A stretch of DNA of 22,095 bases from a virus: positions 1 to 22,095 of IMG/VR virus record IMGVR_UViG_3300046451_000328, one strand, 5' to 3'. The notes below the pieces were generated by a model. That model had not been told where the DNA came from and made no database searches. It saw only the letters and a list, made by a program, of their open reading frames with translations. Position numbers and translations under genes: made by a program. Every line of letters begins with the position of its first letter. Position 1 is the stretch's first letter. Positions 934 through 6,260 of this stretch are shown piece by piece.

Positions 934-959
934 TTGATTTTGTGTTTTTTAATTATATG

Positions 960-991
960 TAAATATACAATGTTTTTTTAAAGTATGCAAA
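960..991 (-). promoter_or_regulatory. Bacteroidota-type promoter A
   Basis: Read on the minus strand, a TTTG -33 box (988-991) is followed after exactly 20 nt by TATATTTA (960-967). This fits the Bacteroidota sigma-A pattern of TTTG and TAnnTTTG, with A in place of the last G. The same two boxes with the same 20-nt spacing occur in promoter B at 1658-1689. A 21-nt block covering the -7 box (949-969) is identical in both. A palindrome lies over the -33 box, so the promoter is probably repressible. Confidence 0.75.
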
Positions 992-1000
992 TTATTTGCA
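986..1000. promoter_or_regulatory. Perfect palindrome over the -33 box of promoter A (putative operator)
   Basis: TGCAAATTATTTGCA is a perfect inverted repeat with 7-bp arms around one central base. It covers the -33 TTTG of promoter A, where a bound protein would block RNA polymerase. Related TGCAA-N5-TTGCA sites occur at 1684-1698 and 1770-1784. The regulator is not identified in this window. Confidence 0.65.
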
Positions 1001-1027
1001 CATTATTTATAAGTTTATTTAGTTATT

Positions 1028-1309
1028 CTATAATACTCTTAAATCTTGTTTTCCTATAAAACTCTCATCTACCTTGTGATTTAGCCATCTGTGATTGAAA
1101 CAAACTTTAACGGCTACCCACATATTTAAGCGTTGACTCGCCCAAGCATTTGCTTGTTTTTCTGTGTGAAATTTTGCTGGTTTAGTATTGAAAGTATCTA
1201 TTGTGGTTTCACACTTTGATTCATTCTCGTTTGCTATCTGTAAACTTTCTTCATCTAATACTACCCATAATTTAGTAGATTTTTCTGTTGCTGTAAATTG
1301 TCCTCTCAT
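1028..1309 (-). CDS. Hypothetical protein, 93 aa
   Basis: Small soluble protein of no recognised family. It has a central AKFHTEKQANAWASQRLNMW segment rich in aromatic and polar residues, two cysteines and three tryptophans in the second half. No membrane segment is predicted. The start at 1307-1309 has an A-rich leader (AATAAATAAAAAAATAG). The gene follows the 96-aa gene at 1337-1627 by 27 bp and is probably transcribed with it from promoter B. The segment 'TEKQANAWASQRL' resembles short amphipathic helices in small phage proteins but does not permit a functional call. Confidence 0.7.
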   Translation of the reverse strand: MRGQFTATEKSTKLWVVLDEESLQIANENESKCETTIDTFNTKPAKFHTEKQANAWASQRLNMWVAVKVCFNHRWLNHKVDESFIGKQDLRVL

Positions 1310-1336
1310 AATTTCTATTTTTTTATTTATTAATTA

Positions 1337-1627
1337 TTAAAAATTGCTTCTCATTGCATTTCCTCTTGTCGCTTGTTCTCCATTTGAAATCCCAAAAGTT
1401 AAATGTCCAAAATGCTCTCTACAAAACTCCATTGTAATTTCATCATCAAACTTCATACGCTTATCATTTAATCTTAACTCAAACCAAATGTTCTGAAATC
1501 CGTTGTCAAAAGTGTGTAATGTAATAAATGCTCTATCTTCTATTGCATCAAATCCTTCTGTTGATAAACATTGTAATTCATTTGTTGTGATTTTTCTTCC
1601 TCCGATGTGTTTGCTAAAATTTTCCAT
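1337..1627 (-). CDS. Hypothetical protein, 96 aa, first gene after promoter B
   Basis: Unrecognised small protein, mixed alpha/beta in composition, with the segments GGRKITTNELQCL, FQNIWFELRLNDKRMKF and EHFGHLTFGISNGEQATRGN. No signal peptide, membrane segment or cysteine cluster. The ATG at 1625-1627 lies about 31 nt from the -7 box of promoter B, with an ACATAAAAAAACACAAA leader that closely matches the leader of the other promoter-led gene at 933. It is probably co-transcribed with the 93-aa gene. Function unknown; position suggests early or accessory. Confidence 0.7.
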   Translation of the reverse strand: MENFSKHIGGRKITTNELQCLSTEGFDAIEDRAFITLHTFDNGFQNIWFELRLNDKRMKFDDEITMEFCREHFGHLTFGISNGEQATRGNAMRSNF

Positions 1628-1657
1628 TTTGTGTTTTTTTATGTTATTAATTATATG

Positions 1658-1689
1658 TAAATATACATTTATTTTTCATTGTATGCAAA
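1658..1689 (-). promoter_or_regulatory. Bacteroidota-type promoter B
   Basis: On the minus strand TTTG (1686-1689) is followed after 20 nt by TATATTTA (1658-1665), the same boxes and spacing as promoter A. The 21-nt block 1647-1667 is identical to 949-969. It would drive the genes at 1627 and 1309. A TGCAA...TTGCA palindrome covers the -33 box. The duplication of both promoter and operator argues for co-regulation of the two small-gene units. Confidence 0.75.
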
Positions 1690-1698
1690 TATATTGCA
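1684..1698. promoter_or_regulatory. Palindrome over the -33 box of promoter B (putative operator)
   Basis: TGCAAATATATTGCA has 5-bp arms (TGCAA/TTGCA) around five bases and covers the -33 TTTG, as at promoter A. It differs by one base from the distal site at 1770-1784. Its repeated placement at two promoters is the main support. Confidence 0.6.
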
Positions 1699-1719
1699 AC
1701 AATATAACATAGGTAGTTT

Positions 1720-1732
1720 ATTGATTATCAAT
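1720..1732. repeat. 13-nt perfect palindrome
   Basis: ATTGATTATCAAT is a perfect inverted repeat with 6-bp arms around one base, between the promoter B operator and the distal TGCAA site. It could be a second operator. Being short and AT-rich, it may also be chance. Confidence 0.35.
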
Positions 1733-1769
1733 CAGTTACGAATATAAGAAGAAAATTGTTGTTATTTGT

Positions 1770-1784: not shown

Positions 1785-1876
1785 AAAAGACGTCGCTTTT
1801 GTGTGCATTTAAAGAGATGCAGTAAACATTTAATAGATATTAGTAGGCAATATGCCAGTCTGCACCCCCTTAAATG

Positions 1877-1917
1877 CTAAATAGGAGAAGGCTATTATGA
1901 GACCTCCCCCTATTTAA
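1877..1917 (-). ncRNA. Minus-sense RNA hairpin downstream of the holin-like gene
   Basis: Arms 1877-1891 and 1903-1917 pair over 15 bp in the minus-strand RNA (12 Watson-Crick, 3 G-U) around an 11-nt loop. In plus-strand RNA the three wobble positions become A-C mismatches, so the structure suits transcripts running in the same direction as the genes. No U-run follows, so it is not a standard intrinsic terminator. It may be a 3' end stabiliser, a processing site or part of a small RNA in the leader of the next operon. Confidence 0.55.
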
Positions 1918-4748: not shown

Positions 4749-6260
4749 TTATCCTATTAATTGTACTAAAACTGTAACATCTCCAGATGATGGTGCTGTT
4801 GCAAATCCTATTGTTACTGCACTAGTACTCGTTCTAACTACATCAGCATATACTGTTTCAAAACTAGATGTGTCATACATTTGTACCATAACTGCTCTAC
4901 TACCTAAATTATGAGTAACTGTTGCAGATACACTTCCTCCAACTGTTGTTGAATAGCGTCTTGCTTGTAACCCAGCCGGTGTAACTGCTAAACTTGCAGA
5001 TGAACTTGTTTTAGCTTCTGTTGTAGTAGCTAATTCAACAATACCTTTTGTAGTTAAATTTGCGTCAGGCTCATCTCCAGTATTTGTTCCAGATTGTCCA
5101 CTTAAATAAGTACTTGAAATTGCAGTTCCTTGCCATACACCAGTTCCAATAGTACCAACTGTTGTTAATGATGTGTTTCCAGCCGTTGGAGATTTTCCAG
5201 CTAATGCAGATGTTATTCCACTAGCATAAGAAGCATCATCTCCGATTGCTGCTGCTAATTCATTTAAAGTGTCTAATGCACCTGGAGCTCCTCCAACTAA
5301 TGAAGTGATTTTTCCAGTAACATAAGCCGTAGTTGCAATCTGTGTAGAGTTAGTTGCTGCACTTGCCGTAGGTGCAGTTGGTGTCCCAGTTAATGCTGGA
5401 GAAGCCTTTGGTGCTAAATTTGCAACTGTCATTCCTTTAACTCCAGCTAAATCTGTTAATTCTGAATCCATTACTGCACCAGCAGAAGTAACATTTGCTG
5501 CATCAGTAACATTTGCACCAGCTTCAATTCCGTCTAATTTAGAATTATCTGCACTTGTAAAATTAATCTGTGTTAGTCCACCATTACCAACAGAATATGT
5601 TGTATTAGTGTCAGTAGATGAAACAGTACCATTTGCAGCGATTGTAACATTAGTCCCTCCAGTTAAAGCAGCAACAACATTAGTTGTATCTGTAACGTCA
5701 GCACTTGCTTCAATAGCATCTAACTTAGATTTTAAAGTAGTAGTAAAATTCTTTTGAGTTAATCCACCATCTCCAACAGAATAAGTTGTATTAGTATCTG
5801 TTGATGATAAAACCCCACTACTTATACTTAAATTACTTCCTACTTTTATACCACCTAAAACTGAGCCAGATGCCGTTGGTAAAGAGAAATTATTTGCACT
5901 TGTAGCAATACCAGATAACTTAGAAGTTTGTGCAGATGAAATTCCAGTTTTAGCAGTATTTGCATCAATTTCAGCAATCGTTGCAGATGATAAAGCGATT
6001 GTTACAGAGCCACTTGTTCCACCACCAGTTAATCCAGTTCCAGTATTTACGGCAGTCATATCCCCAGTTGCAGATGATAAAGATACCCAAGCACTCGCAG
6101 TCGCATATTTTAAAATATCGCTTGATGTGTTGTAGTATAATTGTCCCTCAACTACGGCAGGGTCTGTCGCAAGTTTTTGCACAACTACGTTTAGTAATTG
6201 ATTGTCATTTAAATCTATTGTACCTTGTACGTCTAGATTATTTAAAAATTTAATAGCCAT
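4749..6260 (-). CDS. Tail-fibre protein with internal repeats, 503 aa
   Basis: Long Ala/Thr/Ser/Gly-rich fibre-like protein. The N-terminus (MAIKFLNNLDVQGTIDLNDN and following) resembles fibre attachment regions. The middle has a tandem repeat at residues 152-195 and 214-257 that shares STDTNTTYSVG and SKLD.IEA.A.VTD. It is followed by a TGTPTAPTASAATNSTQIAT collagen-like phage-fibre motif near 291-310. The last 70 residues contain VTHNLGSRAVMVQMYD, a beta tip module related to that of the 253-aa neighbour. It probably forms a trimeric fibre that binds the host surface. The start has a strong A-rich leader (AATAAACAAAAACAAAAAAA). No chaperone or enzymatic domain is visible. Confidence 0.85.
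   Translation of the reverse strand: MAIKFLNNLDVQGTIDLNDNQLLNVVVQKLATDPAVVEGQLYYNTSSDILKYATASAWVSLSSATGDMTAVNTGTGLTGGGTSGSVTIALSSATIAEIDANTAKTGISSAQTSKLSGIATSANNFSLPTASGSVLGGIKVGSNLSISSGVLSSTDTNTTYSVGDGGLTQKNFTTTLKSKLDAIEASADVTDTTNVVAALTGGTNVTIAANGTVSSTDTNTTYSVGNGGLTQINFTSADNSKLDGIEAGANVTDAANVTSAGAVMDSELTDLAGVKGMTVANLAPKASPALTGTPTAPTASAATNSTQIATTAYVTGKITSLVGGAPGALDTLNELAAAIGDDASYASGITSALAGKSPTAGNTSLTTVGTIGTGVWQGTAISSTYLSGQSGTNTGDEPDANLTTKGIVELATTTEAKTSSSASLAVTPAGLQARRYSTTVGGSVSATVTHNLGSRAVMVQMYDTSSFETVYADVVRTSTSAVTIGFATAPSSGDVTVLVQLIG
5490..5807 (-). repeat. Two-copy 186-bp-spaced repeat inside the tail-fibre gene
   Basis: Copies at 5676-5807 and 5490-5621 encode near-identical 44-residue blocks with SSTDTNTTYSVG and SKLD.IEA..NVTD-type cores, offset by 62 codons. 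The DNA remains clearly similar. This suits expansion of a repetitive fibre shaft by recombination. Confidence 0.8.

Follow-up and report, generated by a model that had tools for sequence, protein, structure and literature searches.

Promoters that share an operator-like palindrome in the early region of an uncultivated phage, probably of Bacteroidota

Several phages are known to control dispersed genes through a repeated DNA element. In the temperate phage phiC31, conserved inverted repeats are bound by the phiC31 repressor, and the CII protein of lambda is associated with direct repeats, TTGC-N6-TTGC, that flank the -35 element. The Bacillus prophage SPbeta carries a repeated element, SPBRE, which is bound by the master repressor MrpR/YopR (PMC10516654). 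In cluster K mycobacteriophages, the SAS and ESAS repeats, some of them with inverted repeats, lie upstream of a subset of genes and are conserved between relatives (PMC3203893). The stoperators of cluster A mycobacteriophages are described as asymmetric sites at which the repressor stops elongation (PMC9283540). The literature that we searched holds little on how genes are switched on and off in Bacteroidota phages, and the promoter class and control module reported here were not found described in it.

The DNA that we analyzed, referred to here as the window, is a linear IMG/VR phage fragment of 22,095 bp with 32% G+C, from an uncultivated virus whose host phylum is probably Bacteroidota. 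The main genes of the window lie on the minus strand. Its right part encodes tail proteins, a tape measure protein, a head protease, a portal and a tail fiber. Around 2 to 3 kb there are small genes, together with a possible holin gene, and small genes without an assigned role extend from 1.6 kb down to the left end. Searches of the window against known-phage DNA and against Rfam returned no matches, and a tRNA search of the window found none.

The locus resembles each of the described systems in part. Its palindromic operators are dispersed in a phage early region, as in phiC31, but the host phylum and the promoter class are different, and the comparison concerns layout. Unlike the repeats associated with lambda CII, the half-sites are inverted and not direct. 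As with SPBRE, which is bound in SPbeta by a single phage repressor, a repeated 15-bp element is present at many promoters of one phage; in our case, five perfect palindrome-promoters were found across the window and the contigs L004 and L163. However, SPbeta is an integrated prophage in which MrpR keeps lysogeny, whereas no integrase among the larger ORFs surveyed and no proviral copy was found here, and the SPBRE element differs from ours, which is a palindrome fused to the -33 box. The SAS and ESAS repeats are likewise elements upstream of phage genes that are conserved among relatives (PMC3203893), but SAS is a 13-bp asymmetric sequence, GGGATAGGAGCCC, at translation starts, whereas the element here is TGCAA-N5-TTGCA at -45 to -31. 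Stoperators (PMC9283540) share with our sites the proposal of one phage protein at many dispersed positions but are asymmetric, whereas the sites here are palindromic and all but one, site A, are tied to promoters. The use of a common operator across scattered early promoters is a design familiar from other phages; this set of sites is new.

Two promoters and their palindromes in the window

A preliminary description of this DNA had proposed two promoters with the same boxes and the same spacing. In agreement with this, TTTG-N20-TATATTTA was found exactly twice in the window, at 960-991 (P1) and 1658-1689 (P2), both on the minus strand, against a chance expectation of about 0.05. Both promoter blocks (950-1000 and 1648-1698) are part of a direct repeat (946-1000 and 1644-1698; 82% identity over 55 nt), and the 21-nt identical block that had been reported, TGTATATTTACATATAATTAA, does span the -7 box in P1 and P2. 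The -7 box itself, TATATTTA with A at -5, is located at 960-967 in P1 and at 1658-1665 in the lead promoter P2, on the minus strand in each case. The palindrome said to lie over TTTG was also recovered, as an exact TGCAA-N5-TTGCA that overlaps TTTG at both promoters: O1 (986-1000) occupies -45 to -31 of P1 and includes the -33 box at 988-991, and O2 (1684-1698) occupies -45 to -31 of P2 and includes the -33 box at 1686-1689. Chance would supply 0.08 such palindromes in the window and approximately 5e-7 occurrences of the joint promoter and palindrome motif. A two-mismatch palindrome scan and a two-mismatch promoter scan of the window alone gave no excess over shuffles; therefore, only the exact or the joint motif is informative.

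The transcription starts had been placed at 953 and 1651. In host promoters 4 to 5 nt separate the -7 box from the transcription start (PMC6847099), a rule that predicts starts at about 955 and 1653, 2 bases away from the earlier positions. The palindromes stand about 55 to 70 nt upstream of start codons. Behind P1 are minus-strand genes for proteins of 96 aa (643-933; the first gene, without a family), 65 aa (446-643) and 99 aa (135-434), and the homologue of the last in the related contig L007 (105 aa) lies directly behind the second operator-promoter of that contig. Behind P2 are minus-strand genes for proteins of 96 aa (1337-1627; the first gene, with no Pfam match and a 108-aa homologue in L007) and 93 aa (1028-1309), the latter with a homologue behind the operator-promoter of G003 (contig L171). 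A TATAAT of sigma-70 type, located shortly after the -7 box in the downstream direction, was rejected, as it is not conserved in relatives. A second dyad, TGTA-N4-TACA, was observed over the -7 box, without informative variation among the copies.

Further copies and the conservation of the palindrome

The motif had been expected to find the rest of the regulon, and a search with it gave further copies in L004 and in L163/L120. Judged by its sequence, L004 is the same virus as the window, with 99.94% identity and 2 differences in 3,268 aligned bases. It lengthens the left end of the window by 777 bp and carries, just past that end, a third palindrome-promoter (L004 about 124-194). L120 shares its sample with L004 and is contained in L163, with 99.98% identity over that part. 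It has two more perfect palindrome-promoters and a further copy whose upstream arm is degenerate; between one of the L163 copies and the L004 copy, identity is 97% over 71 nt. The genes of L163 include a replication region, VRR-NUC and the large terminase subunit. In the relative L007, a single contig unites genes homologous to the left part of the window with genes homologous to L163. In the relative G003, the homologues that correspond to the lower end of L163 are close to those that correspond to the upper end of the window. L163/L120 is very likely the rest of the genome of the window virus, and we infer, as the simplest reading, that the window, L004 and L163 form a single genome, about 38 kb long and interrupted by two short gaps; the reading draws on the shared sample, the near-identical promoters and the synteny of contigs that do not overlap.

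Across the window, L004 and L163 (about 37 kb), six perfect palindromes are present against 0.13 expected; five are at promoters and one is site A. At least five perfect palindrome-promoters are thus counted, three in the window and L004 and two in L163/L120, with weaker copies besides, and the copies stand at the heads of early-region gene groups. A loose pattern scan of viral contigs gave mostly chance occurrences among the matches listed but yielded L120, L064 and L088. The preliminary description had envisaged a two-promoter regulon under one repressor. The common operator-like palindrome on which that proposal was built is well supported by the sequence comparisons as the mark of a regulon; the number of promoters is at least five and not two, and a repressor would be the likeliest reading.

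In 17 aligned promoters, the conserved block extends exactly from -45 to -31 with background positions on both sides, and the same alignment shows an A-tract at -24 to -18 and TGTATATTTACA at -14 to -3. Of the promoters identified independently of the upstream arm, seven of eight have at most one mismatch to TGCAA, versus 3 of 179 other TTTGCA sites, a set that excludes 23 sites with an exact arm match, taken as the palindromes themselves; this test overstates independence, the copies being partly duplicates of each other. Part of the likeness of the copies is descent, because they are related by duplication, and the better argument is that the block keeps sharp edges where the flanks have diverged. 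In copy 2 of G003, the palindrome is perfect and TTTG has become GTTG, and in copies 3 to 5 of L088, TTTG is retained and the palindrome is broken; therefore, the operator and the -33 box are selected separately. A scan with TGTATATTTACA matched 12 viral contigs, consisting of the family of the window and one other lineage (L045/L162/L165/L166), and none of 84,980 species genomes of bacteria and archaea matched the palindrome-promoter motif. Matches in viruses alone, with none in the species genomes, fit a phage-encoded regulator.

The -7 box departs from that of the host. Promoters of F. johnsoniae have a nearly invariant G at -5 and a weakly conserved -33 element (PMC6847099). The copies described here share with the Bacteroidota primary promoters (TTTG / TAHHTTTG; PMC6847099) the spacing, the TA..TTT core and the AT-rich spacer, but they have A at -5 throughout and a -33 box embedded in the palindrome. 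The distance from TTTG to the -7 box is 19 to 20 nt, as for sigma ABfr, in all aligned copies except copy 2 of G003 (GTTG), whereas the near-invariant G at -5 of TAHHTTTG is replaced by A in every copy, the N19 copy having been put in register. The constancy of this A is partly by selection, as the family searches required TTTAC, a requirement that did not apply to the choice of the two copies in the window or of the copy in L004. When the same intergenic regions were scanned openly for G at -5, few such boxes turned up, and none of them had a palindrome at -33 spacing. TTTG is nearly constant here because it lies inside the palindrome, and the near-constant TTTG together with A at -5 means that the promoter class departs from the host consensus. 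At L163 9210, L163 480 and L172 2830, other genes have consensus -7 boxes with G at -5 (TATATTTG) located 3 to 5 nt before their start codons, which suggests a separate canonical, possibly leaderless promoter class.

The control module of the lead promoter

P2 follows closely on the late operon. The third exact palindrome of the window, site A (1770-1784), is 86 bp upstream of O2; it has no -7 box at promoter spacing and is preceded by a conserved block, CGACGTCTTTTT (minus strand). Between the distal and proximal palindromes lies site B, GTAACTGATTGATAATCAATAA (1718-1739, minus strand), an inverted-repeat element conserved in relatives, in which paired changes are found (ATTG..CAAT / ACTG..CAGT). 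A hairpin at the late-operon end (1878-1916, minus strand), a putative terminator with no T run, replaces the terminator-like hairpins of relatives, and a second strong hairpin (1805-1877, minus strand) is absent from the aligned relatives; the two follow each other on the minus strand at 1805-1916, with z = -6.1 for the region.

The arrangement is retained in relatives. In L006 to L009, found by protein similarity, a hairpin or terminator, site A, site B, and the proximal palindrome with its promoter stand behind late genes, the contigs L006 and L009 ending before the proximal palindrome, and in L064 and L088 the whole module is present twice. In six module copies, the distance between the distal and proximal palindromes is 86, 87, 88, 88, 88 and 88 bp. 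In L007 and L006, the distal palindrome has a TTTG that is followed 25 nt later by TATCTTTG; this pair was considered as an extra promoter and rejected on spacing and non-conservation. The comparison yields a precise conserved operator-promoter motif and a rigid module composed of distal operator, site B and promoter.

Site B has look-alikes in bacterial chromosomes. Its pattern, GTAACTRAYTGATNNNCARTAA, was found at 120 loci or more, mostly in Bacteroidota; among the loci listed, 40 of 120 are 100 to 200 bp from the start of rplM, and several in Flavobacteriaceae are 300 to 500 bp ahead of tRNA clusters. In three genomes that were tested, a single copy was present in each and the controls gave no matches; therefore, the rplM cases are probably due to shared descent. 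The paired positions of site B co-vary in the genome matches listed (Fisher p = 0.003, uncorrected for relatedness).

Possible regulators and modes of control

We see about an even chance that the palindromes are bound by one phage-encoded dimeric protein that represses the early promoters by occluding the -33 box, with the distal site helping. A single dimeric DNA-binding protein acting on all of the palindromes, positioned at -45 to -31, would compete with RNA polymerase for the -33 box and thereby shut off the early promoters jointly. At P2, site A may provide cooperative or looped repression across about eight helical turns, the looping being suggested by spacing alone. Copies with one mutated arm would be repressed more loosely, which would give graded control. 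As the dispersed early regulon, the first part of which lies in the window, has one shared operator, a single protein could switch all of its promoters together, and the set offers Flavobacterium genetics a built-in series of graded promoters and a candidate switch. Because signs of a lysogeny system are lacking, early shut-off in lytic growth is likelier than prophage immunity; none of the larger ORFs of the window, L163 and G003 was seen to encode an integrase, in a survey with two gaps in which family searches covered part of the ORFs.

Less probable, but a serious competitor, is the reading of the palindrome as the site of a phage activator. The promoters would then form a phage-specific middle-type class with a poor -7 box, firing only when an activator over the -33 region contacts RNA polymerase. 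The main reason to consider it is the A at -5 in place of the nearly invariant G of host promoters; in addition, TTTG is weak in host promoters and near-invariant here as part of the palindrome, and its spacing to the -7 box is fixed at 19 to 20 nt. However, some copies in L007 and L163 keep the promoter despite a damaged upstream arm, which would be odd if they depended on an activator, a distal site copy at 86 to 88 bp is more typical of repression, and a search at the head of the same small-gene region found no stronger promoter of canonical type.

A host-read promoter class with no phage regulator, in which TGCAA-N4-TTTGCA would be recognized by RNA polymerase itself or by some host factor, is unlikely. 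The look-alikes of site B, which belongs to the same control region, in many Bacteroidota chromosomes would suit such a class, as would the scattered Bacteroidota promoters with a palindrome over -33 seen in a loose scan, but the latter are about as many as the breadth of that scan predicts (a rough estimate), and the full palindrome-promoter is absent from the 84,980 species genomes. Slightly more doubtful still is a combination in which a phage-specific Bacteroidota promoter class with A at -5 depends for its firing or gating on a phage factor at the palindrome and the lead promoter borrows the site B element of host tRNA clusters and rplM; if so, the first genes of the phage would be tied to a host growth signal. 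That there was only a recent duplication of promoters, with a palindrome that has no function of its own, is very improbable: identity between P1 and the L004 copy does reach about 93% over 94 nt, flanks counted, but the palindrome block is sharply bounded across copies with diverged flanks, and relatives also conserve the distal copy, which has no promoter.

Two small early proteins were considered as candidates for the regulator, the 83-aa protein of L163:12389-12640, with its L007 homologue, and the 74-aa protein of L163:10936-11160; neither gave a match in Pfam or PDB, and we name neither as the regulator. AlphaFold modeled the 83-aa protein with low confidence (pLDDT 56), and Foldseek gave no significant match. 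In the independent lineage, L165 encodes an HTH_3 protein (193 aa, 5483-6064) about 0.8 kb upstream of its single palindrome-promoter (6833), and the promoter ahead of the HTH_3 gene has no palindrome.

Two further features were observed beside copies of the promoter. Behind the third promoter copy, at L004 1-118, a stretch bounded by GGGGGATTA and TAATCCCCC folds better than shuffles (z = -2.8); there is no listed ORF on that strand, the contig ends there, and the stretch is a possible leader or small RNA. In L171 (G003), iteron-like repeats, TTAGCACTCA and GTAGGCATTTGCAGGCA, lie at 1140-1330, directly upstream of the operator-promoter, and may mark a replication origin.
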